Below, one piece after another: positions 3,186-60,208 of a DNA stretch of 62,821 nucleotides. The stretch's first letter is position 1. Every line of letters begins with the position of its first letter. The notes below the pieces were generated by a model. It was not told the DNA's origin and searched no databases. It was given only the letters and a program-made list of their open reading frames with translations. Source of the stretch: Porphyromonadaceae bacterium. Lineage in GTDB: Bacteria; Bacteroidota; Bacteroidia; Bacteroidales; UBA12481. The stretch covers positions 1-62,821 of the forward strand of contig QYQM01000034.1 of the NCBI GenBank assembly GCA_007280905.1. Reading direction: 5' to 3'. A program made the position numbers and the translations under genes.

Positions 3186-3250
3186 TTTCATATCAGATTA
3201 GCGAACATGAACTTAATAAATATGTATTTTTTCAATTAAAAAAACAGATT

Positions 3251-17449: not shown

Positions 17450-17482
17450 ATCAACCACAATAGACACATTAGATCACATTAG
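17450..17482 (+). repeat. Half-copy of CCACAATAGACACATTAG-type intergenic repeat
   Basis: The sequence from 17450 (ATCAACCACAATAGACAC and on to 17482) closely resembles the reverse complement of the right arm of the element at 46227-46340. Only one arm is present here, just after the PqaA-type gene. Confidence 0.5.
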
Positions 17483-25743: not shown

Positions 25744-27474
25744 CTATTTATATATAGTATATTTTCCGGCACTGTAATTATCGGTTCTGATAACCAACTT
25801 ATTATGTTTCTCATCAAACCGGTAATTCACAGAATCTAAAAGAATAGTATCATCGAGTTCAACCTTTTCCGGCTTTGTATTCAGGTTTATCTTCAGGATA
25901 TGCGATTTATGGATATCTCCTAGAGAGATATTAATCCTGTCCGGTTGATCTTCCATCACGACCAGGGTGCTTCCGCTTTGATCCGGATGACGAACAGTGA
26001 ATTCATTTTTACCATCCGGATAGATCAGCAGTGTTAAATATCCGGCTGAGTTTTTATCTCCGATTCCGGTATAATCACGCTTAATATCCATTGGCACGAT
26101 CGCTCCTTCACGGATATACACCGGATATTCATCAAGCGGAAACTCACGTTCAAATGTTACCGGACCTTCAATAACTTCCTTATCATGAAAAAAATATCTC
26201 CATTTCCCTTCCGGCAGCGAAATTTTATTCATTAATTGATCTTTGTAAATGGGAGCGACAAGAAAATTATCGCCGAAAAGATAGTGGTATTTACCTTTCA
26301 CGGGTCGCTGTAGTAGCTTTCCCCCATTATGTGCGTTAACAACATACGTGTACATATATGGGATTAATTCGGTATGCAGCCATGAAAATTTACGGATGAT
26401 CTCCAGTTCCTGTTGCGACCGTTTCCACAAAGCCCTTTCGCCATGGCCACCATTGAGAAACAATCCGCAAAACGCAGAAAATTGTGCCCACCGGATATAC
26501 AGCCGGGGTGGGATCACACTTCCCGAGAAACCGGCCACATCGGAACCAATAATGTTGTATCCGACCCTGGCACTGGCCATAATATTACGCATCGCCAATT
26601 CAATTCCATCGTTCGACTCCCAGGTGTGCTTTTGGTCTCCAACCCAGGTTACCGGGGCAGCATCGATCGGAGCAAATCCCTCGGGATGGTAACCACGGTC
26701 AATCGCCCGGGCCAGCGTAACGAATTCAGCATTCTGCGTTAGTCCGTGTAAATATTCATCCCGGTAATAATGGTCCATGTAGGTGCGTGTGGTCATCAAT
26801 CCTTTTTGCGTTGTTTTATAGAAAAACGGAACGGGTCCGATTAATGTATAGAAAAGCGTTGCGGTCCCGTCGAGTTTCCATCCGTCGATCCCATAATCGA
26901 AAACCTTTTGCTGCAAACCGCGCCACCAATTTACTGCCTCCGGATTGGTGTAATCAATAAAACCTCCTTTCCCTTTCCACCATTTAATCTGGTCACCCTT
27001 ACCGACTAAATAGCCCTTTGCTCGGGCCTCATTAAACCAGGATTCAGACTCTTTGAGCCTGGTGTCCTTGCTTTTGCTATTGACCATCGAGGTCATCCAA
27101 AGCACAACCCGGTAACCTTCTCCCTGCAACTTTCTGAACCACTCTTCCGGATTTGGATACAGCGTTGTATCCACCTGAAAATCATTATAGCACGTACTCC
27201 AGGGACTATCCAACAGGATTGTGCGCACAGGAATATCATGTTTCGAATAGGCTTCGAGCAGTGTATCAACCCGTTGGGCAGTATTGGCATCATCTTCCCA
27301 GAGCCAGCATTCCAATGCCCACACCGGAGTCAGGGGTGGATTTCCATGTCGCTCAGCATCAAACGGGACCCCACGAAAAGGGAATGCAAAACCGAAATAA
27401 TAAATCAATGCCAAAATGGTAATCATAATCAAGAAATATTTAATGATTTTCCGGGTTCTTGCTGGCTTTGTCAT
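25744..27474 (-). CDS. GH31 family alpha-glycosidase, membrane-anchored
   Basis: 576 residues with an N-terminal transmembrane segment (about 11-31). Catalytic hallmarks are the nucleophile Asp in DGWKLDGTA (D202) and the acid/base Asp in TWVGDQKHTW (D280), plus NIIGSDVAGF. GH31 enzymes are retaining alpha-glucosidases, alpha-xylosidases, sulfoquinovosidases and relatives; specificity is not determined here. The usual long N-terminal beta-domain is absent, so the barrel follows the anchor almost at once. It diverges from the ceramidase-like gene across 117 bp containing the three-copy conserved element. Confidence 0.88.
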   Translation of the reverse strand: MTKPARTRKIIKYFLIMITILALIYYFGFAFPFRGVPFDAERHGNPPLTPVWALECWLWEDDANTAQRVDTLLEAYSKHDIPVRTILLDSPWSTCYNDFQVDTTLYPNPEEWFRKLQGEGYRVVLWMTSMVNSKSKDTRLKESESWFNEARAKGYLVGKGDQIKWWKGKGGFIDYTNPEAVNWWRGLQQKVFDYGIDGWKLDGTATLFYTLIGPVPFFYKTTQKGLMTTRTYMDHYYRDEYLHGLTQNAEFVTLARAIDRGYHPEGFAPIDAAPVTWVGDQKHTWESNDGIELAMRNIMASARVGYNIIGSDVAGFSGSVIPPRLYIRWAQFSAFCGLFLNGGHGERALWKRSQQELEIIRKFSWLHTELIPYMYTYVVNAHNGGKLLQRPVKGKYHYLFGDNFLVAPIYKDQLMNKISLPEGKWRYFFHDKEVIEGPVTFEREFPLDEYPVYIREGAIVPMDIKRDYTGIGDKNSAGYLTLLIYPDGKNEFTVRHPDQSGSTLVVMEDQPDRINISLGDIHKSHILKINLNTKPEKVELDDTILLDSVNYRFDEKHNKLVIRTDNYSAGKYTIYK

Positions 27475-27518
27475 GATATTCCGGATGATCAGTAAGATTG
27501 AATTATGTTAATGCGTTT

Positions 27519-27590
27519 CTGCTCTATACAAGTTTAATGAATTATCGTATATTATAATATAGATTTGTCAAGTCAAATGAAAAGGTCAAC
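27519..27590. promoter_or_regulatory. Conserved ~71-bp non-coding element, copy 1 of 3
   Basis: It runs from CTGCTCTATACAAGT through GAATTATCG to TCAAATGAAAAGGTCAAC. It aligns with elements at 46334-46404 (minus) and 58737-58807 (plus), most strongly at both ends. Here it fills the divergent region between GH31 (minus) and the ceramidase-like gene (plus). TAGATTTG at 27560-27567 fits TAnnTTTG for the plus gene. A bidirectional promoter or operator is the likeliest role. Confidence 0.65.
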
Positions 27591-27591
27591 C

Positions 27592-28992
27592 ATGATTAAA
27601 CGATTCGAAATCATTTTGGGTATTATTCTGCTGAGCGTGATGCTGGTTTCCTGCTTCAGCACTTCCCGGGTTGAACGAACCTCCTATCTTCGCGCCGACT
27701 ATTATCAAAAATCCGTGGCACGGATCGATAGCCTTAAATCAGCAACGGAAATCGTAATTGGCACGATAAAAGCTGGTTTTGCAAAGGTTAGTATCACTCC
27801 GGGCTTGAATAATATTAAAGATATTTATTCGGAAGGGAAATTCATTGAGGTGCCGCTTGCCGGTTATGGGGCACGAAAAGGGAAATCAGCCACCGGTATT
27901 CACGACAGCATTTTTGTCAAGGCAGTAGCACTGAAAGTCGATCGGCAAACCCTTGTTTTTGTGAGTGCTGATCTGTTGATCATGCCACCCAATATTATCG
28001 ATTCAGTAACCATACTTCTTTCCAAACAAGGAATCCGGCGGGAGCAACTGTTTTTTTCAGCAACTCACAGTCATTCAAGCATTGGTGGATGGGCGAATGG
28101 TTATGTGGGAAAAGAATTTGCAGGGAACGAGAATAAAAACCTGCAAAGATGGCTTGTTCTGCAGATCTCAAAAGCTGTTACTTCAGCAATTGCAGATTTA
28201 AGGCCTGCCCGGATTGGATCCGGATGGTTTAATGCGGATAGCTACACGCGAAATCGTGTCATAGGCGAATCAGGTACAAAAAACAATGATTTCAGTTTTA
28301 TTGCCCTTGAGCAAATCGGATATAGGAAAGCAATAATAGGTTCATTTTCTGCACATTCAACAACTATGGGATCAGACAATATGGAAATCAGCGCCGATTA
28401 TCCGGGTTACTGGGAACGTAAAATCGAAGGTACCTCTGCCGATCTGGCCCTCTTTTTTGCTGGGTCCGTGGGAAGTCAAAGCCCTGTTGGAAAGGGAGAT
28501 GGCTTCGACAGACCCAGATTTATCGGGGAATCTTTGGCCGATAGCCTGAATGAGCACCTGCCCCAGGTGGTTCTTAATGATAAAATAACATTTTCCGCTA
28601 TTTCATTAAAAGTGCAATTACCGGGTTACCATATTCGGTTGACCACAAAAATCAGCCTTTCCTCTTTTTTAAGTAAGAAATTGATGCCGTTTCCGGAAAA
28701 TGTTTACCTGCAGGCTTTACGAATAGGAAATATGATATGGATTACCACCCCGTGTGATTTCAGCGGCGAATATGCGCTCCAGATCAAGAATTCTCTGGCT
28801 TCAAAAGGGTTTAATGTAATCGTTACCAGTTTCAATGGCAGTTATGTCGGGTATGTTGTTCCCGGCCGTTATTTTTACTACGATCAATACGAATCGAAAC
28901 TAATGGGTTGGTTTGGGCCCAATATGGGCGAATATACCATGGATTTAATCCGCCAGATCTCAAAAATCGTGACTCATACCGAGAACATTTAA
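27592..28992 (+). CDS. Neutral ceramidase-like lipoprotein hydrolase
   Basis: I prefer ATG 27592 (MIKRFEIILGIILLSVMLVS then Cys) because the upstream ATG at 27577 lies inside a repeat element that is non-coding elsewhere. The body matches the N-terminal domain of neutral/alkaline non-lysosomal ceramidases: IKAGFAKVSITP, PLAGYGARKG, ALKVDRQTLVFVSADLL and the zinc-ligand motif ATHSHSSIGGW. Neutral ceramidases cleave the amide bond of ceramide, but many bacterial members are untested and may act on other esters or amides. Followed 13 bp later by a PHP-like gene. Confidence 0.75.
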   Translation: MIKRFEIILGIILLSVMLVSCFSTSRVERTSYLRADYYQKSVARIDSLKSATEIVIGTIKAGFAKVSITPGLNNIKDIYSEGKFIEVPLAGYGARKGKSATGIHDSIFVKAVALKVDRQTLVFVSADLLIMPPNIIDSVTILLSKQGIRREQLFFSATHSHSSIGGWANGYVGKEFAGNENKNLQRWLVLQISKAVTSAIADLRPARIGSGWFNADSYTRNRVIGESGTKNNDFSFIALEQIGYRKAIIGSFSAHSTTMGSDNMEISADYPGYWERKIEGTSADLALFFAGSVGSQSPVGKGDGFDRPRFIGESLADSLNEHLPQVVLNDKITFSAISLKVQLPGYHIRLTTKISLSSFLSKKLMPFPENVYLQALRIGNMIWITTPCDFSGEYALQIKNSLASKGFNVIVTSFNGSYVGYVVPGRYFYYDQYESKLMGWFGPNMGEYTMDLIRQISKIVTHTENI

Positions 28993-45742: not shown

Positions 45743-46174
45743 CTATAGTGTAATAATCTTCCATTTCCCGTTTTGCTTAACATGCGCCAAACCTTTGTAA
45801 CAGCACGAACCATGGTAGTTGTAGGCGTTTTCATAGATGGGAGCGATAACCTCTTTCCCTTCTTTATCAATGAATCCATATTTATCACCTTTCTTCACGG
45901 CCGCAAATCCACCAATAAACTTCCAGGTATTATCATACTTTGGTGGAATGAGCTCTCTTCCTTTTTGGTCCACGTAGCCATACTTTCCATTCAGCCTGAC
46001 AGCAGCCATTCCTTCCTCAACCGAGTATGCCAGATCATATTTAGGTGCGACTATAACTATACCTTTTGGGTCTTTATATCCATATTTGTCATTCGTGCTT
46101 GAATAAAAAGGAACGACCTGTGCCTTCAGCATGGTACCATATATTATGGTGAATAGCAAAACTACTATTTTCAT
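45743..46174 (-). CDS. Secreted WG-repeat protein
   Basis: Start at the ATG complementary to 46172-46174 (MKIVVLLFTIIYGTMLKAQ signal peptide). Three to four WG-type repeats are visible: KYGYKDPKGIVIVAPKYD, KYGYVDQKGRELIPPKYD, KYGFIDKEGKEVIAPIYE, and KWKIITL at the end. WG proteins are beta-rich and of unclear, possibly binding, function. It is 3 bp upstream of the GDPD fusion gene and therefore likely in the same transcript. Confidence 0.85.
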   Translation of the reverse strand: MKIVVLLFTIIYGTMLKAQVVPFYSSTNDKYGYKDPKGIVIVAPKYDLAYSVEEGMAAVRLNGKYGYVDQKGRELIPPKYDNTWKFIGGFAAVKKGDKYGFIDKEGKEVIAPIYENAYNYHGSCCYKGLAHVKQNGKWKIITL

Positions 46175-46226
46175 TTTTACGCTATTATTTGAATAAAATA
46201 TTTTTCGTTTCATTTTTCATTATTTT

Positions 46227-46340
46227 ACCACATTAGGCACAATAGTTCACAATAGAAGGACAAAAAGCAATAAAACTGAACTTTTTGCCACATTACCAGG
46301 AGGATTCTATTGTGACCTAGTCTGTCTATTGTAGTTGGTT
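46227..46340. repeat. Inverted-repeat element of the CCACAATAGACACATTAG type
   Basis: Left arm ACCACATTAGGCACAATAG... (46227-46255) and right arm at 46307-46339 are diverged inverted copies. The middle contains CAAAAAG (46261-46267) and CTTTTTG (46281-46287). A single arm of the same family is at 17450-17482. It partly overlaps the conserved element at 46334. Confidence 0.6.
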
Positions 46341-46404
46341 TTTTCATTTGACAAAACAATGTGTTTAATAATGAACGATAATTCTTTTTACTTGTATGAA
46401 GCAG
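46334..46404. promoter_or_regulatory. Conserved ~71-bp non-coding element, copy 2 of 3
   Basis: On the minus strand it reads CTGCTTCATACAAGTAAAAA to GTCAAATGAAAAAACCAAC. Ungapped comparison with copy 3 (58737-58807) gives 60 of 71 identical positions by eye. It lies between the 3' end of the 2002-residue fusion and the start of the WG-repeat gene, on the boundary of the GH92 block. Similarity continues a few bases to about 46417. Confidence 0.7.
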
Positions 46405-46424
46405 ATGGGCAGTTGATTCAATTA

Positions 46425-49400
46425 TTAATTACCAATTTTCCCTGGCAGATCTTCCGCCTTCGTTCCCCAGGTTTCAGAGGGCTTGCTAGCCATGTAAAAC
46501 ACTAACTCTCCGCCGTTCATAATATCCGAATGTTTGATAAATGATTTGGTATAAGGGATTCCGTTCAGAGTTGCCTTTTGGATATATATATTTTGCTTAC
46601 TCAGGTTTTCAGCTTTAACTACAAAGTACTTTCCGTTGCTGAGCTTAAATTCTGATTGATCCGCCAAAGGGCTGCCAAAAATGTATTCACCATTGGCCGG
46701 ATTTACAGGATAGAAACCTATTGAACTAAATACATACCATGCACTCATTTGCCCGCAATCGTCGTTGCCACACAAGCCATTTGGTAGATTACTATAAAAT
46801 TGGGTAAGAATATGGTTCACCCTTTCTGCCGTTTGCCAGGGCTTGCCCACGTAACTATACAGATAGGGAACATGATGGCTTGGTTCGTTAGAAAACTCAG
46901 ATAACCCGTAGAATCCATGATTTTTTATATCCCTGTAGGGTGCATCAGGCGCATTATACAGAGAATCTAATCTTTGAGCAAATAGATCACCTCCCATGGC
47001 ATGAACTAAACCATACACATCTTGCGGAACATACCAGGTGTAAATCCAGGCATTGCCCTCCTGAAAGCCAATGGATTCTTTGGGATTGAAAGGAAGTATC
47101 CAATTACCTTTTGAATTTTTAGGCCTGACAAAGCCAGTCGTTGAATCAAAAACATTTTTCCAATACTCACTTCTTTTCATGAATTCATTGTATTCGGATC
47201 GGCGGTTCATTTTTTTTGCCACCTGTGCAATACACCAATCATCAAAAGCATATTCTACCGTTTTGGTTACCCCTCTCTGCCTGGGATCGAGGTCATCGGG
47301 CACGTACCCATATTTGCGATAGACATCAGATTCGCGAGTATCCTGGTTGGCTGTTTCTTTCATCGCTTCGAGAGCAAAATGGTAATCAAAGCCCTCAATA
47401 TCCTTTAAAATAGCATCGGCAATAATTGGAACAGCATGATAGCCAGGCATAACATTAGCCTCATTGAAATATAGCTCCCAGGAAGGAAGAAGGCCATATT
47501 GCTTGTAGAATTCAAGGTATGAATTAATAATTGCCGGCAATCGCCCGGTTTGTGTTATTGTAAATAAAGGAGCTGTTGCACGGTAGGTGTCCCACAATGA
47601 GCTAAGTGTGTAGATGTCCTTGCCCTCGTGGATTTTTTTATCTGCACCGGTATATTTCCCCAAAGCATCGTCAAAGCGAAATGGTGCAAAGCAGCAGTGA
47701 TAAACTGAGGTGTAGAATGTTTCCTTGAATGCCCGATCTCCGGAGGTCACTTTTATTTTGCCCAACTCGTCCTCCCAGGCATCTTCAGCATTCTTCTTTA
47801 CAGTTTCAAAGTCCCAATCTTTTACCTCCTGCAAGCCTTCCATTGCCCCTTCGATATTCGCAGAGCTGATAGCTACTTTCACCAATACCTGTTCGCCGTT
47901 TTTTGTTGCAGGAAAAGAAAGGTAAGAACTAACCCTGACTGCTCTTGCCTCCTGCTTCGAGTTCACCCTGGTGCTATCTGCAAAAATCACCATGTCATCA
48001 AAAGGCTTGCTGGTTTGAGCGGCAAAGTAAACACAGCGTTCGCCGGCAAAACCAATGGAACGACGAAATCCAACAACGGTGTTATTGTCGATTTTTTTGA
48101 TATAGCACTCCAAAGGCAAATTGCCATTATGACCAACCCGGGCTTCCATTCCGTTTCCAAAGCCTAAATCAAATTTAATAACAGGTTTTTTACTTTCCGG
48201 AAAGGTGTAGCGATGCAGACCGCAATGCAGGGTGGCCGTGAGCTCGGCGCAGATATTAAAAGTTTTGAGCAACACCGAGTAATATCCAGGTTTGGCTGTC
48301 TCCTCTTCATGCGAAAATTCGCTTCTGACAGAGTTTGGTGTAGCCTCGGTATTGACTAATGGAAACAGCGAAATATCGCACAGATCTTCGGCTCCTGTTC
48401 CGCTAAAATGCGTGTGGCTAAAGCCTGTAATGTTTTTGCTGGTATAGTGGTAACCGCTGCACCAGTTGTAGCCATGGTCTCCATTGTCAGGACTCAATTG
48501 TACCATTCCAAAAGGAACAAGGGCTCCAGGAAAGGTGTGGCCATCTTCGTCGGTTCCTATAAAAGGGTTGACGTAATCAGTCATACGTTCTTCAAGATGG
48601 AACAATGCACTTGCAGGTATTTGCTGTTGATCAATATCGGGGCCATCCCAGCTAACGATGTTAAATTTCTTAGCACCCAGCTGGAAATACTTTTCACGAA
48701 TTTGATATTTGCCTTTCCGAAGTGCAACCGTTCTGAAACCTCCCCGCAGAAATTCTTTGCCATCGATGTATATGGTACATTTATCATTTACTTTTATGGA
48801 GAAGGTATAAATGCCATCTCTTGGAATATCCAGATACCCGGAATAGATATAGCCAAAATAGTCTTCACGTTTACGGTTTTCGATCGTAAATCCTGAAATA
48901 ATACCAGTTTCCAGCGGAGGTAATGTATCCAGGTCATCTTCTTCCATTACCTGGGCATGGTAATACTTATAATTCAGTCCCTTAACAAATCGGCCTTTAC
49001 CCTCGTAATTTTGAAAGTCCTCAAATTCCAATTTTTTTACGTTAACAGATACAGGTATACTTGGTAATAACCCAACTCGAAATGCTGAAAATCGCAAGCC
49101 TGTAGTTTGGCCTAATGTAATTGGTTTTGTGTACGGCGATGATTTTTCGGTGGGTCGGCTTCCATCGGTTGTGTAATAGATCTTCGCCTCTTTGTCATCA
49201 CAAATAAGCGTCACCTTCCCTGTATGAAGGAAGTATTCGTCGGTGGTAACTGCGTAAGGAAGTTTTACTGCCGGTTCAAATTTTTCGCTAACCGGCCGGT
49301 CTTCTTTTGCTGCTCCCCACTCTTGATTGGGTGATGATCCCATTTCGAAAGCCAGTTCGGAGCCAGTCAGAATGTCTTCGTGAGTAAACCACGATCTGGA

Positions 49401-52400
49401 ATAAGGTGTCCCGTTGAGAGTTGCACTTTGAATATATTTATTGTTGGCTGACACATTATTTGCCCGAATGATAAATTTCTTGTCATTTTCGAGATTGATT
49501 ATTACTTTAGCAAAAATCGGACTTCCGATAACATAATCCGGGGTTCCCGGACATACCTGATAAAATCCCATAGCGCTTAAAATGTACCAGGCCGACATTT
49601 GTCCGCAATCTTCATTTCCACTTAATCCATCAGGTTGATCGTCGTACAGGGTATCCAAAATTTGTCTGACCATTGCCTGAGTTTTCCAGGGAACACCGGC
49701 ATAATTGTACAAATAGGCCATGTGGTGACTGGGCTCATTGCCGTGTGCATATTGCCCGATCAGCCCTGATGCGTCAATTACATTTTCGTCGTGCTTCGAT
49801 TGTTTTGTGAAAAGCGTATCCATCCAGGCGATAAATTTCTGGTCGCCACCGATCAGGTCAATCAATCCATTAACATCATGCGGTGCAAACAGACTGTATT
49901 GATAGGAGTTTCCCTCAACGAAATGTTCGCTCCCTTCCGAAGGATCAAAAGGGGTAACCCAGGTTCGATCGGAATTTTTCGGCCGCATAAACCCGGTTAA
50001 TGCGTCGAACAGGTTTTTATAAAATTGAGCCCGATAAATATAGTCCTGATAATCTTCCTCTTTACCCAGCAATTTTGCCATGCGGGCAACACTCCAATCG
50101 TTATAGGAATACTCCATAACCATGGAAACAGAACCTCCAACCTTATCGGCAGGAATAAATCCAAGATCTTTATAATAGCCAATATCCTGAACACGCTTTT
50201 TCATTGCTTCAAAAGCTAATTCTTCATCAAAACCACGTATCCCTTTCACATATCCATCCAATATAACCGAGTGGGTATGGTAACCGATCATGGTAGCTGT
50301 ATTATTTCCAGCCAGCTCCCATTGAGGCAGCACACCCCCGATATGGTACATTTCCAGAAAAGTTTTTATGAAATCCGTATATCGCAGTGGATCAATAATC
50401 GTGTAAAGGGGCATATTCGCACGAAAAGTATCCCATAAGGAAAAGACCGTGTAATTGGTAAATCCTTCAGCCTTGTGAATTTTGTGATCAATACCACGAT
50501 ATCTTTTGTCGACATCCATAAACTCATTAGGAGCTATAGCGGTATGATACAGGCCAGTATAGAAAATCCTCCATTGCTTTTCGGTTCCTCCCTCCACCTC
50601 AATTTTCGACAAGAAACTGTTCCATTTTTCTTTTGCATCTTCCGCTACACGCTCAAAATCCCAATCCGGGTTTTCCGCTTCGAGATTCTTTTTTGCCCCA
50701 TCAATATCTACCGCCGAGATCCCGATTTTAACAAGAATTCCTTCTTGCTCCTTCGTCAGAAATTGCACAAATGCCCTGATATTCTTCCCTTCTGCTTTAT
50801 TAATGCCATCTAACAGTTTGTCATCAAGAGCAATGCCATAAGAACTAAACGGTTTTGAAAATTTCGCATAGAAATAGACATACTGATCATCTGCCCAACG
50901 TTTGGACCTTCGCAGTCCCTGGATCACTGTATCACCTATGATTTCGATATTGGATTCAAGCACGTGATCCCTGTTCTTCAAATCAATAATAATATTTGCA
51001 CTTTCGGAAGCGGGGAAAGTATAGCGATGCAATCCCGAACGGGTTGTGGCAGTCAATTCAGCTTTTATCTTATCATCGTCAAGAATAACACTATAATATC
51101 CCGGGGAAGCATGCTCATTTTCGTGGCTGAACGCCGAGCGGTATCCTGTTTTCGAATCGTTTTCATCACCGGGTAAGATCTGAACATCACCAACGGTGGG
51201 CATCAAAAGTACATCACAGTATTCCGGAGCGCCTGTTCCGCTCAAATGCGTTTGACTGAATCCCATAATTGTTTTATCGGAATAATGATAGCCGGAAGAG
51301 CCATCCCAATTTTCCCAGCGTGTATCGGGGCTGATTTGTACCATCCCAAACGGGACAGTTGCCCCCGGGAAAGTATGGCCATGACCGCCGGTGCCGATGA
51401 ACGGATCGACAAGAGAGGTATAATCAGTTTTATAATAGGCATCGATGCGTTGTTTTACATTATGCCTGATATTCATCCAGAAAAGGTTGTAATCGTAAAT
51501 ATGGAGGTTCTTAGGCTTTTCTGCATTCTCTTCAATAGTTCCTTGAATATCAACCCACAGGATTCTGGTAGCCGGTTCAATCCCAGCGCCAGCAGTATGG
51601 GGTATGATGGTTTCAAACCCGTTCATAACACCCTGGTGAAGCTCCGGTGATGCCCATTGTACCGAGGTTGTCCATGTTAAGGGGTTGACGCAAACCGAAT
51701 TCCCGTTCTCTGCTTGAACCCCTTTTGGAATCTCCCCCTTCACATAGCTGCGCCATCCGACCAAACAACCGGTTTGATCAGCACTTTCTCCAACCGGAAT
51801 TTCTTTAAACGCGTTTTTCGCAATTTGATAACCAACCACATAAGCACAAACTAATCTTTTTTGTAAAGGTGTCCCATCAAAAAATTCCTGCAATAGTCTT
51901 AAGGCATGAAGGCTTCCCTGACTGTGGGACGCAATGATGATAGGACGGTTTTCGTTGTAATTTTCCAGAAAATAGAGAAAGGCTTTCCTTACATCGCTGT
52001 AAGCCAGATCAAAAGCCTCTTTGGCAATGGGTTTTCCAAGAACATAAAAGGCTTTCATATTAGCCTGACGGTAGCGCGGTGCAAAAACCCGGCAACTGCC
52101 GTTGAACACGGTTGCCTGATAGAGTATCGACCTGAAATCGGTTTCCAGATTGACTGTCGAATCGTTCAAATCAGCATTCCAGGCAGCGGAGTCTCCCTCA
52201 GCGAAAAAGGAGGTCGGATGGATAAAAAACACATCGGCACGCTGGTCCCTGATCTCATATTTCAGAAATCTCGGGATGCTGTCGCTGGTATCTGATTTAA
52301 AAGGTGATGCTGCCCAGTTATTCAGCTTGCTGTAATCAGGACCGGCTGCTTCCTGAACGGTGCTCCTGCTTTGGGCAATAGCAGAAGAGAGCAGAAGAGA

Positions 52401-52433
52401 AGCAAAAATCAAAAAGAGAACAGCTTTTTTCAT
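46425..52433 (-). CDS. Giant fusion: DUF3089 lipase-like + GH92 + CHB_HEX/PA14 + GH92
   Basis: 2002 residues with signal peptide (MKKAVLFLIFASLLLSSAIA). Residues of about 30-330 are a DUF3089-type alpha/beta hydrolase with nucleophile elbow IIIASHSQGSLHAL (S171). Residues of about 338-1040 form a first GH92 domain (VDPFIGTGGHGHTFPGATVP, GNEPSHH with E900, GNEDCGQMSAWY). Residues of about 1075-1125 form a chitobiase C-terminal-like strand set (EAKIYYTTDGSRPTEKSSP), and about 1180-1280 a PA14 domain (DGIYTFSIKVNDKCTIYIDG). Residues of about 1281-2002 are a second complete GH92 (VNPFIGTDEDGHTFPGALVP, SNEPSHH with E1850, GNDDCGQMSAWY). GH92 enzymes are calcium-dependent inverting alpha-mannosidases. 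Both domains keep the expected acid Glu, so both may be active. Confidence 0.85.
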   Translation of the reverse strand: MKKAVLFLIFASLLLSSAIAQSRSTVQEAAGPDYSKLNNWAASPFKSDTSDSIPRFLKYEIRDQRADVFFIHPTSFFAEGDSAAWNADLNDSTVNLETDFRSILYQATVFNGSCRVFAPRYRQANMKAFYVLGKPIAKEAFDLAYSDVRKAFLYFLENYNENRPIIIASHSQGSLHALRLLQEFFDGTPLQKRLVCAYVVGYQIAKNAFKEIPVGESADQTGCLVGWRSYVKGEIPKGVQAENGNSVCVNPLTWTTSVQWASPELHQGVMNGFETIIPHTAGAGIEPATRILWVDIQGTIEENAEKPKNLHIYDYNLFWMNIRHNVKQRIDAYYKTDYTSLVDPFIGTGGHGHTFPGATVPFGMVQISPDTRWENWDGSSGYHYSDKTIMGFSQTHLSGTGAPEYCDVLLMPTVGDVQILPGDENDSKTGYRSAFSHENEHASPGYYSVILDDDKIKAELTATTRSGLHRYTFPASESANIIIDLKNRDHVLESNIEIIGDTVIQGLRRSKRWADDQYVYFYAKFSKPFSSYGIALDDKLLDGINKAEGKNIRAFVQFLTKEQEGILVKIGISAVDIDGAKKNLEAENPDWDFERVAEDAKEKWNSFLSKIEVEGGTEKQWRIFYTGLYHTAIAPNEFMDVDKRYRGIDHKIHKAEGFTNYTVFSLWDTFRANMPLYTIIDPLRYTDFIKTFLEMYHIGGVLPQWELAGNNTATMIGYHTHSVILDGYVKGIRGFDEELAFEAMKKRVQDIGYYKDLGFIPADKVGGSVSMVMEYSYNDWSVARMAKLLGKEEDYQDYIYRAQFYKNLFDALTGFMRPKNSDRTWVTPFDPSEGSEHFVEGNSYQYSLFAPHDVNGLIDLIGGDQKFIAWMDTLFTKQSKHDENVIDASGLIGQYAHGNEPSHHMAYLYNYAGVPWKTQAMVRQILDTLYDDQPDGLSGNEDCGQMSAWYILSAMGFYQVCPGTPDYVIGSPIFAKVIINLENDKKFIIRANNVSANNKYIQSATLNGTPYSRSWFTHEDILTGSELAFEMGSSPNQEWGAAKEDRPVSEKFEPAVKLPYAVTTDEYFLHTGKVTLICDDKEAKIYYTTDGSRPTEKSSPYTKPITLGQTTGLRFSAFRVGLLPSIPVSVNVKKLEFEDFQNYEGKGRFVKGLNYKYYHAQVMEEDDLDTLPPLETGIISGFTIENRKREDYFGYIYSGYLDIPRDGIYTFSIKVNDKCTIYIDGKEFLRGGFRTVALRKGKYQIREKYFQLGAKKFNIVSWDGPDIDQQQIPASALFHLEERMTDYVNPFIGTDEDGHTFPGALVPFGMVQLSPDNGDHGYNWCSGYHYTSKNITGFSHTHFSGTGAEDLCDISLFPLVNTEATPNSVRSEFSHEEETAKPGYYSVLLKTFNICAELTATLHCGLHRYTFPESKKPVIKFDLGFGNGMEARVGHNGNLPLECYIKKIDNNTVVGFRRSIGFAGERCVYFAAQTSKPFDDMVIFADSTRVNSKQEARAVRVSSYLSFPATKNGEQVLVKVAISSANIEGAMEGLQEVKDWDFETVKKNAEDAWEDELGKIKVTSGDRAFKETFYTSVYHCCFAPFRFDDALGKYTGADKKIHEGKDIYTLSSLWDTYRATAPLFTITQTGRLPAIINSYLEFYKQYGLLPSWELYFNEANVMPGYHAVPIIADAILKDIEGFDYHFALEAMKETANQDTRESDVYRKYGYVPDDLDPRQRGVTKTVEYAFDDWCIAQVAKKMNRRSEYNEFMKRSEYWKNVFDSTTGFVRPKNSKGNWILPFNPKESIGFQEGNAWIYTWYVPQDVYGLVHAMGGDLFAQRLDSLYNAPDAPYRDIKNHGFYGLSEFSNEPSHHVPYLYSYVGKPWQTAERVNHILTQFYSNLPNGLCGNDDCGQMSAWYVFSSIGFYPVNPANGEYIFGSPLADQSEFKLSNGKYFVVKAENLSKQNIYIQKATLNGIPYTKSFIKHSDIMNGGELVFYMASKPSETWGTKAEDLPGKIGN

Positions 52434-52474
52434 TGATATTTAATTGAACCATTTAGCAGGGATAGAAATAAAAA

Positions 52475-52633
52475 ACCACGGAGACACAGAGAGCACGGAG
52501 TCCCACGGAGTTTAACCTTCTTGTTATCCTGTTAGTTTCAAATGTAACAGAAGTTTTCATCACCAAATATGCTTCATTAACGATTCGGGAATTCTTCTCT
52601 GTGCATCTCTGTGTTCTCCGTGCCTCCGTTGTG
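52475..52633. repeat. Inverted repeat CCACGGAGACACAGAG type, overlapping a GH92 3' end
   Basis: The left arm (52475-52510, ACCACGGAGACACAGAGAGC...) and the right arm (52595-52633, ending CTCCGTGCCTCCGTTGTG) are inverted. The right arm lies inside the coding sequence of the GH92 gene whose stop is at 52577. Confidence 0.7.
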
Positions 52634-54997
52634 AGTATTAGTGGGTTTATCGCTCATCTCAAAACGTAATATGCCTCCTTGCGCAATCTCAGCATGCTTA
52701 AACCAGAATCGTTCGAGAAGGACATCATTTAACCACACCTTACGAACATATTTATTATCTGCAGAATAATTATCCGCCACAATGGTGAGAAGTTTATCTC
52801 CAATTTTCATTTCAGCCTTTTCGAAAAGAGGAGCTCCAATCTGATATAGATCAGATCCGGCCACCGGATAAAAACCCAGAGCGCTGAATACGTACCATGA
52901 TGATAATGTTCCGGCGTCATCATCTCCGTCAATACCATCGTATCCCGCGCCGTATTTATTATCAAGGATCCAGCGCACCCATTTCTGGGTCAGATCGGGC
53001 CGGCCGGCCGTGTTGAACAGGTATGCAGCGTGCAGATCAGGTTCATTGCCATGCCAATAATAAGAACCGGGATTCCAGCTTCCCCGTGACGAATCAGAAA
53101 GAGCAAAAAAATCATTGAGCTCATTCACAAAATATTCCTGGTCTTTAAAGAGGGAAATCAAACCTTCGGGATCAAAGAATACCGCCCACCGCCATTGCAG
53201 GGCACTTCCTTCAACATAGTCGTCGGTATATTCACGATTAAAATCAAGATAAGTTAATCTGAGCGGTTTAAATTTTTTAACAAACTCACCTGAAGCATTT
53301 CGAGGGTGGAAGTATTGGCTCTCCGGATTCCAAACATTGCGATAATACTTTGAATGTTTGGCAAATAATTCGGCATCTTCATTGTACCCAAGCACCTTTG
53401 CCAGTTTTGCGATGGCATCGTCGGCATAAGCATATTCAAGTGTTTTGCTGACTGCTTCATCCATCAGATCAGCAGGACAGTAGTGATATTCCAGACATTC
53501 CCTCATGCCTTCTCTTGGCTTAAAACCTTCCTTTGGGATATCAATGCCCAAAGCAGCTTTACGCATGGCCTGATAAGCTGTTTCCACATTAAAATCCCGG
53601 ATCCCTTTCAGATAAGACTCCGCAATCACAATATCGGCAGAAGCGCCAAGCATGGAGCCTGTGTAGCCATATCCGGAAGGCCATCTTGGAAGGACTCCGC
53701 CCTGCTCACACATTTTTACCAGCGACACCATCATATCGCGCTGGTCTTTTGGTGCAATTAAGGTAAAGAGCGGATGTATGGTACGGAATGTATCCCACAA
53801 AGACAGATCGGTAAAATACCGGTAATCAGTCACTTTATGAACCTTCTTGTCAAAACCCATGTAATCGCCATTCACATCATTGAAGAGAGTAGGCATTTGC
53901 AGTGAATGGTATAGGGCGGTATAAAATATTTTCCTTTGCTCATCGCTTCCTCCTTCGATTTTGATAAGGGATAGTTTCTCTTCCCAGGCCTGTTTCGCTT
54001 TCGAAAGCATATCATCAAAACTAATTTCACCCGCTTCCTCATCCAGATTGGTCCGTGCGTTTTCTATACTCACATACGAGATACCCAGCTTTAGCTCAAT
54101 AATTTGCCTGGATCCGGCTTTATTAAAACTTAAATCAACCCCGATCTGATTACCGTCAACAGATGTTTGATTTTTGAAAAGGTTATTGCCCGACCATACA
54201 CAATAAGCAGAGAAAGGCTGATCAAAACGGGCTGCGAAATAAACCCTGATGCCTCCATACCGGCCGGCAAATGATCCGAATGTCCGTATGGTTCCCACAA
54301 CCTCTTGTTGTTCAGGATATATCTGCACTTCGCCCTCGGTCGTTTTACCATGTCCTAAAGCACTGGATACATCAATAAGTATATGCGGTGTTTCATCCGA
54401 TGAAAAGGTATATCGGTGCATGCCCACACGTTCGCTCGCTGTCAGTTCGGCAAGTATTCCCTGTTTAGGAAGTTTTACAGCATAATAGCCAGGAAAAGCG
54501 ACTTCTTCTTTATGAGAGAATTTGCTATACCTGCCTTTCCGATAATTCTCCTGTCCCTTGTCACCAATGGCAGGAATAACTCTGAAATGACCTCCTTCAA
54601 AGGCTCCGGTACCAATCATCCGGGTATGACTGAATCCGATTATTCTGTTATCACCATAATAATATCCGGCAGTACTAACCGTCTTTCCCTGGGTGAAGTT
54701 GGAACCCAGAAAAAATTCTGTATCGGGGCTCAACCGGACCATCCCGTATGGACGCGTTGCCCCCGGTATATCATCACCACTGGTATAAGCGGGAAAACCA
54801 CCTGTACCGATAAAAGGATTCACCCATTGTCCCATTTCACCCGGTCTGGCAGTAACATTCAACCGCCCCGGCTGGGCACCCACCGTACTCTGATACCTGA
54901 TGAAAAAGGACAGAATCACAATTGATAAGACCAACAGTAAAGCTGCAATCCCATAAATCAGGTACCTAAATATCGTTTTAATTAGTTTCATATTCAT
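52577..54997 (-). CDS. Membrane-anchored GH92 alpha-mannosidase-like protein
   Basis: 806 residues with an N-terminal transmembrane segment (about 10-32). GH92 features: QWVNPFIGTGGFPAYTSGDD, GATRPYGMVRLSPDT, DLSLWDTFRTIHPL, YWHGNEPDLHAAYLFN (acid Glu E652) and GDDDAGTLSSWYVFSALGFY. The motifs differ from the other GH92 domains here (NEPDLH for NEPSHH; GDDDAG for GNEDCG), pointing to a different linkage specificity. The last 18 or so residues (THNGGTENTEMHREEFPNR) are encoded by an intergenic repeat. Its start overlaps the upstream stop (TAATG), implying coupling. Confidence 0.87.
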   Translation of the reverse strand: MNMKLIKTIFRYLIYGIAALLLVLSIVILSFFIRYQSTVGAQPGRLNVTARPGEMGQWVNPFIGTGGFPAYTSGDDIPGATRPYGMVRLSPDTEFFLGSNFTQGKTVSTAGYYYGDNRIIGFSHTRMIGTGAFEGGHFRVIPAIGDKGQENYRKGRYSKFSHKEEVAFPGYYAVKLPKQGILAELTASERVGMHRYTFSSDETPHILIDVSSALGHGKTTEGEVQIYPEQQEVVGTIRTFGSFAGRYGGIRVYFAARFDQPFSAYCVWSGNNLFKNQTSVDGNQIGVDLSFNKAGSRQIIELKLGISYVSIENARTNLDEEAGEISFDDMLSKAKQAWEEKLSLIKIEGGSDEQRKIFYTALYHSLQMPTLFNDVNGDYMGFDKKVHKVTDYRYFTDLSLWDTFRTIHPLFTLIAPKDQRDMMVSLVKMCEQGGVLPRWPSGYGYTGSMLGASADIVIAESYLKGIRDFNVETAYQAMRKAALGIDIPKEGFKPREGMRECLEYHYCPADLMDEAVSKTLEYAYADDAIAKLAKVLGYNEDAELFAKHSKYYRNVWNPESQYFHPRNASGEFVKKFKPLRLTYLDFNREYTDDYVEGSALQWRWAVFFDPEGLISLFKDQEYFVNELNDFFALSDSSRGSWNPGSYYWHGNEPDLHAAYLFNTAGRPDLTQKWVRWILDNKYGAGYDGIDGDDDAGTLSSWYVFSALGFYPVAGSDLYQIGAPLFEKAEMKIGDKLLTIVADNYSADNKYVRKVWLNDVLLERFWFKHAEIAQGGILRFEMSDKPTNTHNGGTENTEMHREEFPNR

Positions 54998-55641
54998 TAT
55001 TGGTCTGGTTTTGGATGTGATTTCACCATTTCCAGGGCTTCCTCAATGAAAATCTCCCCGGTCATTTCACCCAAACTGGTCCGACTTATATAATTATATC
55101 GTGTAAAGCTGTTAAAATCTACTTTTGTCAGTATATATGCAAAAGCATCATTTGTATTTCCAAAAAGAAATGGCTGATTGCTGTTCATGTTTCGCTTGAT
55201 ATAGTAGCCAATATTGGGTAAAGCTTCTCCGGGAACGGTTAAAATCTGAGCAGTGCCAATGTTCACTAAATTTATTTGGGTAGTAACATTGTAATTATCA
55301 TCTACATTATATTTTAAAGGAGAATTTTTAAAAATGAATCGCATCATTTCAGATTCTATCGGAAATTGAATATTTTTTGCTGCACAATAAAGTCCGGGGA
55401 TTTCCTGAACTTTAGCTTCATTGATTATTCGTAAAGCTTCATCGGCCAATAGTTCTCCGATACGGATGCATTCCTCCCATGTTTTATCCTCACCTCCACC
55501 CTCCTTTCGAATGTCAGCAGTCACCATTCCACCTTGTGTGCTACCCATGAAAATTGCAACACCGGCCTTAAATGATTCGGCAAAAATAGATATCGCTGTA
55601 AATAAACCTATCAGAATAAAAAATCCACATGCTCTTTTCAT
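54997..55641 (-). pseudogene. Ceramidase-like gene with internal in-frame deletion
   Basis: The start at the ATG complementary to 55639-55641 gives a signal peptide (MKRACGFFILIGLFTAISIF). ESFKAGVA, the normal start of the ceramidase domain, is joined directly to IFMGSTQGGMVTADIRKEGG. The latter aligns to IFMNSAQGGMVTADTRRENG of the 30334 protein, near its residue 235. The region between, with the THAHS metal motif, is missing, so ceramidase activity should be lost. From the junction onward similarity is high (FKNSPL, VPGEALPNIGYY, YNYISRTSLGEMTG). The frame is intact, so a protein may still be made. It overlaps the GH92 genes on both sides. Confidence 0.75.
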
Positions 55642-55667
55642 TGCTACTCTCTTTTTGCCAAACATCT

Positions 55668-58667
55668 TCACTGCTTTTTATGAAACAAAACCGAGGCAGG
55701 TATTTCCTGTTTTTCGATTCCCGGACCCTGCCACGAAACAATCAATCCGTTAGTTCCTCCTTCCTGAAAATATTTAACGGAAATTGGATGAAGTCCCGCC
55801 TTTAATGCAACTGGCTTATAAATTTCGATCAAAGGATGTAACCCATCATTATTGATCAAACATATATCGTCGATATACAACCGACCGCCATCGTTCGTGG
55901 TAAGATAGATTGTATATAATCCATCTTTTGGAATACGGATAAATCCTTCGAAATCGAAAGCAAAAAACTGCTCTTTTTCACGTGGTTCAATAGTGAAAAC
56001 AGGAACAACTCCGGTTTTCACGGGCTTTATGGTTTGAAAATCATTCACCATACGGAAATTCCCGTGAATATACCGGTATGAAAGACCAGGTTCCACTTCT
56101 CCAGTGAGAACCGGCTTGCTCATACCTGTCTTTTTTATTTCAGCCAGGGCAGGCAAACTCTTTTGATCACCCCGGTACGCCATCATTCTAATGCTTGTGG
56201 TTTTATTTACCACAAACGGTTCCTTATATAACCGGGAATTCTTATCAGGTTGTGAACCATCAAGGGTATAATATATTTCAGCTCGTTCAGTATCGCATGC
56301 CAGTTTAACCGATTTATCCTTCAAAAAGATTTTATCCGTGTCGATAATATACGGTGTGGTTACAATCGGGTCGATATCCATTATTTGTGGATGCTCGCTG
56401 GTTGAAGCCCACGCTTTATCGGGTTCAGGGCCCATGTTCAAAATAAGTCTTCCTCCTTTTACCAGCTCGGAATGTTTGATCCAGAATTTTTTCAATTCTT
56501 TACCGTTAAAAGTTGCAGATTGAATATATCTGTTTTCAGAAGAAGCATTTTTTGCTTCAATAATAAATTTGCTGCCTTTATAATAATCAGGATCGAGTTG
56601 GATAGTAATTTTTTTAAAGATAGGGCCTGATATTTCATAGACGGGGTCAGATGAAGCTCCCCCATCCATCTCGAAAAGGCCCATGGCACTCATGACATAC
56701 CATGCTCCCATCTGCCCCTCATCTTCATCACCCGGATACCCGTCGAAAGGATTAGTTCCGTAATAATGGTCAAGGATTTCTCTCACCCAGTATTGCGTAA
56801 GCCAGGGTTTTCCTGAATAGTTGAAAAGCCAGGCAGCCTGCATGTTTGGCTGATTGCTGTGGTTTACAAATTCGCTGGTAAAAACCGGCCGCGACTTTTT
56901 GAATCCTTCCTCCAACCGGTTATTAAATTCATCGACGCCCATTAAATGAATCAGTCCTTTCAGGTCATGCGGAACGAACCAGGTATATTGCCAGGCATTG
57001 GCTTCAACATAATCCCTGGTTCCGAAATTATCTTCTTTACCAACAGCGCTCTTAACCGGGGAAAACTCTTCCAGCCAGGGACCTCCTTCATATTTTGGTC
57101 TTATATAGCCTGTAGAATGGTCAAAAACATTCCGGTAATTTTGTGCCCGCTGCATAAAGTATTTGTAATCATCCGTTTTGCCCAGGGATTTGGCCATCTG
57201 CGCCACGCACCAGTCGTTGTAGGCATATTCAAGGGTATTGGATACGGGGCCGTCGTCAGCGGGAACGTATCCCATGGCCATATAGGGCACTAAATTCCTG
57301 TTACCAACAAATCCGCCGCATTCATGCGGCCGGGCCGGAGTCATCTGAATTTCTTTCATGGCTTTATAAGCCTTCTTGCCATCAAAATTCCGGATCCCTT
57401 TTTGCCAGGCACCCACAATAAGAGGTATTTCGTGTTCTGCAACCATAATACCTGAATATTCAATTCCTGCAGGGCCGTTGGACAGCCATCCTCCTCTGTC
57501 ATAGATCTCAAGTAACGACTTCACCCACTTTTCGTTAACATCAGGGGTAACCAGTCCCCACAGCTGGTTCAGGTTCCAGAATGTCATCCAGAATGCATCA
57601 CAGCCATAAACCGGTGAATCAGGATCGGGCAGTTGCCTGACTTTTTCGCACATATCCACATATAGCCCGTTTACATCGCTATAAATGGTGCGGGCACTAT
57701 AGGAATGGTATAAGTTGGTATAAAATTTCACTTTGTCGGTCTCGGTCCCTCCTTCCACTTTTATTTTTCCCAACAGATTATTCCATATATCTCTTGCATT
57801 TTTATGAACAGCATCAAAGTCCCACTGAAACTTATCAATCTCTGATTCCATATTTAACCTTGCCTGCCGGGTACTTACATATGAAATACCCGTTTTCATT
57901 AATACTACCGGATCATTCCCTAACTTAAAATTCAGTAATGCCCCGATATCGGAGTCTTCAGTTACGCGAACCTCATCCGTTTGATTCAGAATATTTGCTC
58001 CCTGCCATCCTCCCAGCGATTCGAAAGGACGATTGAAACGTGCAACAAAATGGAGGATATATTCATTCCATCCGGCTACACGCTTCACATACCCTTCAAT
58101 TTCGGTATTACTAACTTTCTTTATGGAAGCCTCGATTATTGTCGGTTTATCTTCTTCCGGCACCTGCAGGTCGAAAAGTATGTGCCCGTTTTCTACTTTC
58201 GGGAACGTATACCTCTGAAATCCTCCTCGTGTTGTTGCAGTTAATTCTGCTTTTATTCCATAATCTTCCAATAAAACAGAATAATATCCCGGTGAAGCCT
58301 TTTCGGTATCATGGTTAATTCTTGAGCGATATCCTGAATCAGGATCATCTTTTGTGCCTGGCAATATCTTTATTTCCCCGGTTGCCGGCATAGTTAAAAA
58401 ACTCCCCATCGCCCATGAATGGACATGCCCGAATCCGGCAATGCTGTTGATTTTATATTCGTAGCCAGCATCCATCACGTAATCGTCGGTATTGTCCGGA
58501 CTTAACTTTACCATGCCAAAGGGCAAACATGGCCCGGGGAAAAGCATCCAACGGTTGCCGGAAGTTCCGATAAATGGATCTACATAATCAACGGGTTGTT
58601 TTTGTTTGATACATCCCGAAGCGGCGACAATACTAAAGAATATAATAAACCTATATATATTTTTCAT
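55668..58667 (-). CDS. GH92-CHB_HEX-PA14 lipoprotein with Gln at the catalytic-acid position
   Basis: Start at the ATG complementary to 58665-58667 (MKNIYRFIIFFSIVAASGC, lipoprotein signal); 999 residues. GH92 domain of about 25-760 with YVDPFIGTSGNRW, GPCLPFGMVKLSPDN and GDEDEGQMGAWYVMSAMG. The position of the general acid, normally NEPSHH, reads SNQPNMQAAWLF, so Glu is Gln (Q606, codon CAG at 56850-56852). A chitobiase-type segment (AEIYYTLDGSQPDKNSRLYK, about 785-840) and PA14 (DGLYTIYLTTNDGGRLYIDD, about 890-990) follow, as in the middle of the 2002-residue fusion. From memory, the Glu-to-Gln change is known in GH92 enzymes cleaving mannose-1-phosphate diesters. Confidence 0.87.
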   Translation of the reverse strand: MKNIYRFIIFFSIVAASGCIKQKQPVDYVDPFIGTSGNRWMLFPGPCLPFGMVKLSPDNTDDYVMDAGYEYKINSIAGFGHVHSWAMGSFLTMPATGEIKILPGTKDDPDSGYRSRINHDTEKASPGYYSVLLEDYGIKAELTATTRGGFQRYTFPKVENGHILFDLQVPEEDKPTIIEASIKKVSNTEIEGYVKRVAGWNEYILHFVARFNRPFESLGGWQGANILNQTDEVRVTEDSDIGALLNFKLGNDPVVLMKTGISYVSTRQARLNMESEIDKFQWDFDAVHKNARDIWNNLLGKIKVEGGTETDKVKFYTNLYHSYSARTIYSDVNGLYVDMCEKVRQLPDPDSPVYGCDAFWMTFWNLNQLWGLVTPDVNEKWVKSLLEIYDRGGWLSNGPAGIEYSGIMVAEHEIPLIVGAWQKGIRNFDGKKAYKAMKEIQMTPARPHECGGFVGNRNLVPYMAMGYVPADDGPVSNTLEYAYNDWCVAQMAKSLGKTDDYKYFMQRAQNYRNVFDHSTGYIRPKYEGGPWLEEFSPVKSAVGKEDNFGTRDYVEANAWQYTWFVPHDLKGLIHLMGVDEFNNRLEEGFKKSRPVFTSEFVNHSNQPNMQAAWLFNYSGKPWLTQYWVREILDHYYGTNPFDGYPGDEDEGQMGAWYVMSAMGLFEMDGGASSDPVYEISGPIFKKITIQLDPDYYKGSKFIIEAKNASSENRYIQSATFNGKELKKFWIKHSELVKGGRLILNMGPEPDKAWASTSEHPQIMDIDPIVTTPYIIDTDKIFLKDKSVKLACDTERAEIYYTLDGSQPDKNSRLYKEPFVVNKTTSIRMMAYRGDQKSLPALAEIKKTGMSKPVLTGEVEPGLSYRYIHGNFRMVNDFQTIKPVKTGVVPVFTIEPREKEQFFAFDFEGFIRIPKDGLYTIYLTTNDGGRLYIDDICLINNDGLHPLIEIYKPVALKAGLHPISVKYFQEGGTNGLIVSWQGPGIEKQEIPASVLFHKKQ

Positions 58668-58736
58668 GGTTAAAATGCTTATGGTTAGTACTAAAACCTC
58701 GACAAATATTGATGTAAATATATGATAACTGCTTAT

Positions 58737-58807
58737 CTGCTTCATACAGGTAAAAAGAATTATCGATCATTATAGCATGCCTTATCTTGTCCAATGAAAA
58801 AACCAAC
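58737..58807. promoter_or_regulatory. Conserved ~71-bp non-coding element, copy 3 of 3
   Basis: On the plus strand it reads CTGCTTCATACAGGTAAAAA to CCAATGAAAAAACCAAC. On the minus strand it contains a TATAAT and lies 70 bp upstream of the GH92 gene start at 58667, just after the GHMP-kinase stop. It is inverted relative to copy 2, so the two copies bracket the GH92 block. Confidence 0.7.
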
Positions 58808-58810
58808 CAG

Positions 58811-60208
58811 CTATTCATTGATTTTTAGAATGCCAAAGGTGTCAGCACCGTCAGAGCTTCCTTCAAAAAGGTAGGGATCACCCATACCTGATTGAGCGTA
58901 AAGGTCGAAAACCCGGTGAACCACCTCAGAGGCACTTTTTTCAGCCAGGATAGCGACAGTTCCACCGGCACCTCCACCGGTTATTTTGGCACCGTAGATT
59001 CCGTGGCGAATGCCTTCAACCCTGAGAAGGCTTACAAGATAATCAGTAGCTTTTGCACCTAAACCGCATTCAGTATAAGAGTAATGCGACTGATACATCA
59101 GTTCCCCCATCATTTTAAACGCCCTTTTGGAGGATATCAGAGATGCACCTCTCGACAATTCGGAGAATAGCTGAACCCGGTAGTTTTCCTCGACAGCATA
59201 TTTTGTATTGGCACGAATGGAATAGATTACTCCGTCTTTCAAAGGTGTGTATGGATCAACATGAAAAGAGTGCCCGGACAGAAACTCACTGCGATTCATT
59301 GTGACAGGTAGTTTACCTTCGTATTTTTCATGAAAAACAGAAAACGATAAGTTGGCCAGATATCCATCCCAATGTTGATCGGTATAGCGTTCGATCTCAC
59401 TTCGATCATCCACAGTAACTGCGATTTGCTCCAGATCGCAAATCATTTTGTAACCCATAAATGCTGCGGCACGCGCAGCTTCGTACTCAATTCCGGATAC
59501 CTCATGGCTTACTCCCGAATCGATTCCCCAGATTTGCAACTCCCCGGGAAGTTGTATCAGGGGTTCGGGCAAACAAGGCTGGCAAACCAAAGGCAAAATA
59601 CATCCCTCTTTCCCTGCTACAACGGCAATCTGGTCCATGATCCCGCAAGCTGATTCAGCAATCACATTTTCCACCCACTGACAGGCTAGGGCAAGTTCAA
59701 TTCCTTTAAGATCAAGCCCGTAAGCAGCTGCAGCTGCTTTCATAACTGAAACCTCGATGGCAGCTGAAGAACTGACGCCCCTATTTAAAGGAACGGTCGA
59801 TTCCGTGTAAATCTGAATGCCTGAGTGTATTTGTTCAGGAAATTTCTTTCTAAGATAATACAGGGTTCCAAGTACATAGGCAGTCCAACGGATTGAGGGC
59901 GAGCTGTTGATATAAGTTCTGACAGAAGACTCATCATGCAGTTCTGCGAAAGTGGTAATCACATCACCCTGCCATCCGGCTTCTGAAGCTGTCTGGTTTT
60001 TCAAAACGATCAGTTGATCAGTTCGAAGCTGGGCAGCGGCATAAGTAGCTTCCCGGATGGTGGATTCAAAGACCAATCCACCGGTGTAGTCATCGTTTCC
60101 ACCCATCAGATCGAGCCGGCCGGGTGAGCGGGCTATAAAAACCGGAATGGAAGGGGATAAGAAACCGTCGTTCCTGATCAAAGAGTTAACATGATCTACA
60201 AATTCCAT
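58811..60208 (-). CDS. GHMP sugar kinase, L-arabinokinase-like
   Basis: 465 residues, cytoplasmic. FIARSPGRLDLMGGNDDYTGG with FESTIREATYAA resembles plant L-arabinokinase (APGRLDVMGG...DYSGSL...IREAC) more than galactokinase (GRVNLIGEHTDYN). The ATP loop is VPLNRGVSSSAAIEV and the C-terminal GHMP motif is GAKITGGGAGGTVAIL. The reaction is probably ATP-dependent phosphorylation of a sugar at C1. It lies 41 bp downstream of the DegT aminotransferase gene on the same strand. Confidence 0.82.
   Translation of the reverse strand: MEFVDHVNSLIRNDGFLSPSIPVFIARSPGRLDLMGGNDDYTGGLVFESTIREATYAAAQLRTDQLIVLKNQTASEAGWQGDVITTFAELHDESSVRTYINSSPSIRWTAYVLGTLYYLRKKFPEQIHSGIQIYTESTVPLNRGVSSSAAIEVSVMKAAAAAYGLDLKGIELALACQWVENVIAESACGIMDQIAVVAGKEGCILPLVCQPCLPEPLIQLPGELQIWGIDSGVSHEVSGIEYEAARAAAFMGYKMICDLEQIAVTVDDRSEIERYTDQHWDGYLANLSFSVFHEKYEGKLPVTMNRSEFLSGHSFHVDPYTPLKDGVIYSIRANTKYAVEENYRVQLFSELSRGASLISSKRAFKMMGELMYQSHYSYTECGLGAKATDYLVSLLRVEGIRHGIYGAKITGGGAGGTVAILAEKSASEVVHRVFDLYAQSGMGDPYLFEGSSDGADTFGILKINE

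Follow-up and report, generated by a model that had tools for sequence, protein, structure and literature searches.

The stretch of DNA analysed here (the window), a 62,821-nucleotide contig of a Porphyromonadaceae bacterium, carries three copies of a short non-coding repeat, each beside genes with predicted roles in hydrolysis. Copy a (58727..58807, plus strand) lies between the stop of a GHMP-type kinase gene (58811..60208, minus strand; Pfam GHMP_kinases_N), whose 3′ end adjoins it, and the start of a GH92 gene (55668..58667, minus strand; Pfam Glyco_hydro_92), which lies downstream of the copy in the reverse sense. Copy b (46334..46414, minus strand) adjoins on one side the 3′ end of a 2002-aa GH92 gene (46425..52433, minus strand; Pfam Glyco_hydro_92) and on the other a hairpin, beyond which stands a WG-repeat gene (45743..46213, minus strand; Pfam WG_beta_rep). 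Copy c (27512..27592, plus strand), which is diverged, is situated between a GH31 gene (25744..27474, minus strand; Pfam Glyco_hydro_31) and a ceramidase-like gene (27592..28992, plus strand; Pfam Ceramidase_alk). The 2002-aa frame at 46425-52433 encodes a single chain with DUF3089 and two stretches of GH92, and a 224-aa open frame located between two GH92 genes (54997-55671) has no Pfam match.

The initial annotation had described a non-coding repeat of about 71 bp at three places of the window, and its copies 1, 2 and 3, which correspond to c, b and a, respectively, are real. As it reported, copies a (58737-58807, plus) and b (46334-46404, minus) are identical at 60 of 71 positions without gaps, while the best ungapped match of copy a in 60 first-order Markov versions of the window reached only 34-39 of 71. 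A repeat finder extends this inverted pair to 81 nt at 84% identity (46334-46414 and 58727-58807), and the genome-wide search returned the a/b match with an E-value of 8e-19. The conserved ends and variable middle attributed to these two copies were also confirmed, since nine of their 11 mismatches fall within columns 38-57, a clustering equalled in 32 of 20,000 random placements when the position of the column window was scanned; between copy a and the copy on contig C36 (see below) the pattern is weaker (8 of 16 mismatches, P 0.03). Copy c aligns to the others only with small indels. Nevertheless, a profile built from a, b and the C36 copy, and thus free of c, recovered it at 27512-27592 with an E-value of 1.2e-7, the second-best match of this profile in the window having an E-value of only 0.35.

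The genome-wide search for the element that had been recommended yielded one further full copy, a half copy and a deleted copy outside the window. The fourth full copy (G000:C36:10028-10110, in this 4.39-Mb genome, G000; E 1.7e-14) precedes a GH30 gene, the half copy (C168:11717-11768) precedes tilS, so assigned by NCBIfam, and the deleted copy (C130:19190-19284) was found by profile search with an E-value of 0.0075. Each of the four full copies matches the element profile with an E-value of 5e-23 or lower. The possibility of an RNA element was considered and rejected: in six foldings, the 71-72-nt copies did not outperform shuffled sequences (z 0.35 to 1.98), and Rfam at gathering scores gave zero matches in the window.

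The positions of the copies relative to gene starts are those originally given, and two further orientations were found. In its forward reading copy a runs towards the kinase gene, entering it at the 3′ end, and copy b does likewise with the 2002-aa GH92 gene when read in reverse. When a, c and the C36 copy are read in reverse, that is, away from the hairpin, the start of a glycosidase gene in the same sense follows at about 25-70 bp, as is the case for three of the four full copies. On its other side copy c directly adjoins the start of the ceramidase-like gene, and copy b is separated from the start of the WG-repeat gene by at least 120 bp, with the hairpin in between. A predicted hydrolase gene adjoins all four full copies, and the genes that have the homologous element upstream (GH92, GH31 together with the ceramidase-like gene, and GH30) are not homologous to one another.

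The hairpin next to copy b (46227-46335) is a second repeat, missed in the earlier reading, that adjoins the copy directly. It was detected as an inverted repeat with 31-nt arms at 46227-46257 and 46305-46335, which are 81% complementary and delimit a unit of about 110 bp; terminal inverted repeats of the type known from MITEs are thus present in the hairpin, and none were seen in the element itself. The family is dispersed, with 29 matches in the genome that we group into about 22 places. Its arms consist mostly of three CACAWTAG-like units set 1-2 bases apart, whereas the interiors differ in length and sequence. Single half terminal repeats also occur in the genome; one is present in the window at 17454..17482 (plus strand), between two co-directional genes and adjacent to a weak profile match (E 0.06). 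As single-stranded DNA, the hairpin at copy b folds well, with a z-score of -3.85. Paired changes that keep the arms complementary, as in REPIN/RAYT elements, were not seen among 15 hairpins (one per place), whose own arms match no better than swapped ones (9855 of 10,000 permutations were as good or better), which suggests that the arms are conserved for their sequence, as a recognition site, and not for the structure they form.

Hairpin and element are physically linked. Copy b, the C36 copy, the half copy and the deleted copy all adjoin hairpins with terminal inverted repeats of about 30 bp, and in b and C36 the two parts are continuous across the same junction, with 83% identity over 133 query bases in the hairpin and 78% over 91 in the element, hereafter the tail. 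The complete unit, as seen in these two copies, comprises a hairpin of about 110 bp followed by a tail of about 80 bp, some 200 bp in total. Copies a and c consist of the tail alone, without a hairpin; by eye, both begin with TGGTT, the last bases of the hairpin end, although an agreement of five bases is perhaps due to chance. The motif at the outer end of the tail was then scored in the 26 flanks of 13 hairpins against 235 intergenic control segments, leaving out b and C36, from which the motif was derived, as well as places with single or incomplete hairpins. Seven of the 26 flanks exceeded the 95th percentile (1.3 expected), at varied distances from the hairpin. Five, among them the already known deleted copy on C130, exceeded the 99th (0.26 expected), and every one of these points outward from its hairpin. 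Some of the controls came from loci chosen for similarity to the element, which biases the test against enrichment. One flank, at L037, faces inward and lies above the 95% line of a control set that was not limited to intergenic DNA.

Relatives allow sites with and without the element to be compared, the comparison being between species and not between strains. An ortholog of the GH30 gene exists in four of seven congeners (74-79% identity; G007 has two further GH30 genes at 44-46%), and all four retain the upstream gene and a terminator without either hairpin or element. The intergenic spacing at this site amounts to 166, 65, 67 and 78 bp in the congeners versus 269 bp here, and the extra length corresponds to the hairpin and tail, placed between the terminator and the start codon. 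At the site of copy a, a near ortholog of the GH92 gene was found in one congener, G005 (82%), where the element is absent. The order kinase-GH92-GH92 is conserved in that genome (kinase, 75% over the 85 residues compared; second GH92, 71%), with a kinase-GH92 spacing of 37 bp versus 143 bp here. The 224-aa frame mentioned above has no match in the 286 bp between the two GH92 matches of G005. The ceramidase-like gene has an ortholog in G005 only (75%), which lacks the element upstream; its neighbourhood is different and GH31 is absent from the stretch compared, which makes this weak evidence. For the site of copy b, the GDPD neighbour gave no match at an E-value of 1e-40 in the seven congeners. 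Filled and empty sites are therefore available for hairpin plus tail at GH30 (empty in 4 of 4 congeners) and for the tail only at GH92 (empty in 1 of 1). Because the intergenic DNA of the congeners is too diverged, neither a target-site duplication nor the exact point of insertion can be read.

Beyond these sites, the element profile yielded no convincing copy in 11 other genomes of the family, the best E-value being 0.083; weak matches in nine of them (E 0.083 to 0.5) were taken as noise. BLAST against 60 genomes returned this genome and only a short match in G034 (33 query bases, E 4.8e-4). Of the 11 family genomes, G007 alone gave matches to the hairpin (11 in number), and those that were examined end in a different flanking sequence.

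The most probable reading of these observations, at roughly 0.68, is that of an intergenic repeat dispersed in few copies: the element would form the outer tail of a MITE-like family of hairpins and would have entered its sites in the lineage of this species. The comparison with relatives points to gain of the element in this lineage rather than to an old operator. At the site of copy a there is a counterpoint, namely that the single congener compared may instead have lost it. A hairpin-plus-tail element would have spread in this lineage, probably moved by a transposase acting in trans, and some of its copies would have been reduced to the tail, which would keep a fixed outward direction from the hairpin. 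Three copies (a, c and C36) place the outward tail before glycosidase starts, c adjoining the start of the ceramidase-like gene as well, and b directs it at the 3′ end of a GH92 gene; such a mixture is expected of insertions more than of an operator. We infer that the inverted pair around the GH92 block reflects the chance placement of two insertions.

Under this reading the tail might also act on the genes that it adjoins, as a putative promoter or activator site that would give the neighbouring gene new expression, while the hairpin would limit read-through from the preceding gene. Since the insert separates the kinase from GH92, and the terminator from GH30, the downstream gene may now depend on it, and a promoter role of the tail is possible. 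A bolder version, which we regard as speculative, holds that the unit is a portable two-part cassette in which the hairpin limits transcription coming from the upstream gene and the outward tail starts that of the next one; it would make co-directional partners (kinase/GH92; terminator/GH30) independently controlled glycan-degradation genes within one species. It has been reported that TAnnTTTG is the primary -7 box of Bacteroidota (PMC7366714, in the portion consulted), but on neither strand do the four full copies have in common an 8-mer that matches it at five or more of the six positions; TTCATTTG, a five-of-six match on the reverse strand, is shared by b and c only. A primary-sigma promoter with a common -7 box was accordingly rejected, the box not being common to the four copies.

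Among the alternatives, the one that survives best, although we consider it unlikely, is that one promoter region reached other loci through gene conversion or recombination between intergenic regions, with no transposition involved, as in promoter reuse. This would account for the differing extent of the copies, either tail alone or hairpin plus tail, and for the lack of a visible target duplication. It accounts less well for a hairpin family with terminal repeats that is dispersed like a transposable element, or for the joint occurrence of tail and hairpin in two full and two partial copies.

Somewhat less probable still is an operator or activator site of a glycan-degradation regulon (GH92, GH31, GH30 and the ceramidase-like gene), in which one transcription factor would bind the conserved ends and switch the genes together. 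All four full copies stand beside predicted hydrolase genes, with a, c and C36 at the short distances from glycosidase starts given above; the ends are conserved and the middle variable between a and b, and the tail lacks RNA structure, as a DNA site would. Yet the element is missing at these sites in congeners that have the same genes, copy b faces the 3′ end of a gene in the sense concerned, and the shared stretch, some 80 bp at roughly 80% identity, is long for an operator and is joined to a hairpin in two of the four full copies. The proposal that the repeat is a shared operator co-regulating these modules is weakened in consequence, since lack of conservation in relatives with the same genes, named at the outset as evidence against it, was what we found for the genes on which it could be tested (GH92, GH30 and ceramidase-like). 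Conserved ends fit binding of a protein, be it a transposase or a regulator; together with the variable middle they also fit selection on a binding site, a point against the MITE-like reading. An element that spread only recently might still co-regulate genes of this species.

The remaining proposal, in which the inverted pair, bracketing three GH92 genes as it does, delimits a mobile or duplicated block of 12 kb, is highly improbable, being contradicted by the kinase-GH92-GH92 order that G005 has without the element (so that the junction of the block at the kinase end is independent of it), by the single C36 copy, which brackets nothing that we could see, and by a GC content of 0.429 resembling that of the surroundings (0.421 and 0.452). 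The comparison with relatives that had been suggested for such a block thus revealed absence of the element beside GH92, GH30 and ceramidase-like orthologs and did not bear out the block as a moving unit; the hint that something moves here holds for the short element with its hairpin, which looks mobile.

Several known systems resemble the hairpin-plus-tail element. BrickBuilt, a MITE of Porphyromonas gingivalis, is intergenic and present in 19 copies in one strain, and its authors report promoter activity and raise a putative role as a mobile promoter (PMC4596501, in the sections consulted). Both systems belong to Bacteroidota and share an intergenic location, leader and tail segments, small inverted-repeat ends, partial copies, and filled and empty sites, which in BrickBuilt are between strains. 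They differ in that the 12-bp ends and 23-nt inner repeats of BrickBuilt are unlike the three CACAWTAG units found here, that target duplications accompany some BrickBuilt copies and none are readable here, and that promoter activity, reported for BrickBuilt, is putative here (PMC4596501).

The element is likewise found beside unrelated genes in one genome, with a hairpin repeat attached in some copies and a promoter activity that is only putative. Both features set it apart from the putative mobile promoters of Matus-Garcia et al. (2012), reportedly intergenic sequences that resemble one another and occur beside unrelated genes of a genome.

The REPIN/RAYT system is likewise built on a short dispersed repeat that occurs as inverted doublets and as single halves (PMC8049555, in the part consulted). 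A further likeness is a Y1 transposase gene of this genome (C168:4540-4971; L101 541-972), which is preceded, at a distance of 262 bp, by a half terminal repeat of the hairpin family; it is the only one of three Y1 matches in the genome near such a half repeat. Its product belongs to IS200/IS605 by NCBIfam (71.2 bits, cut-off 55) and, as a difference from RAYTs, falls below the REP-associated cut-off (REP_Tyr_transpos, 34.1 bits, cut-off 80). By eye, moreover, the half unit here shows no obvious palindrome of its own, which differs from the structure of REPs. Y1 genes are present in all seven congeners, and the hairpin was not detected in six of the seven, in a further departure from REPIN/RAYT; the C168 gene is hence only a lead, and a search of the Y1 family found no transposase with these terminal repeats. 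The modular ends, with their three spaced CACAWTAG units, and the separable tail could help to find the mobilising enzyme. Should the tail drive transcription, the element would offer a natural example, with known empty sites, of hydrolase genes rewired by short mobile DNA within a single lineage; otherwise it would still constitute a MITE-like family that went unrecognised in the searches described here.

Wider collections were also searched, in which records of this genome were possibly excluded from both contig sets: the core of the tail had no match in viral_contigs and matched exactly once in genome_contigs, within a coding repeat, a match that we attribute to chance. Among plasmids and phages, the composite gave no match at an E-value of 0.01. 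The pattern TATGAAGCAGATAA, allowing two mismatches, returned 93 matches versus 14 for the reversed control and was set aside because it reads as a run of common codons. In viral_contigs the pattern of the hairpin end has a single occurrence, on L192. This contig of the viral collection encodes a reverse transcriptase (2252-3247), whose best NCBIfam match, a group II intron reverse transcriptase, is below the cut-off; by eye, its neighbours are phage-like on one side and chromosomal-looking on the other.
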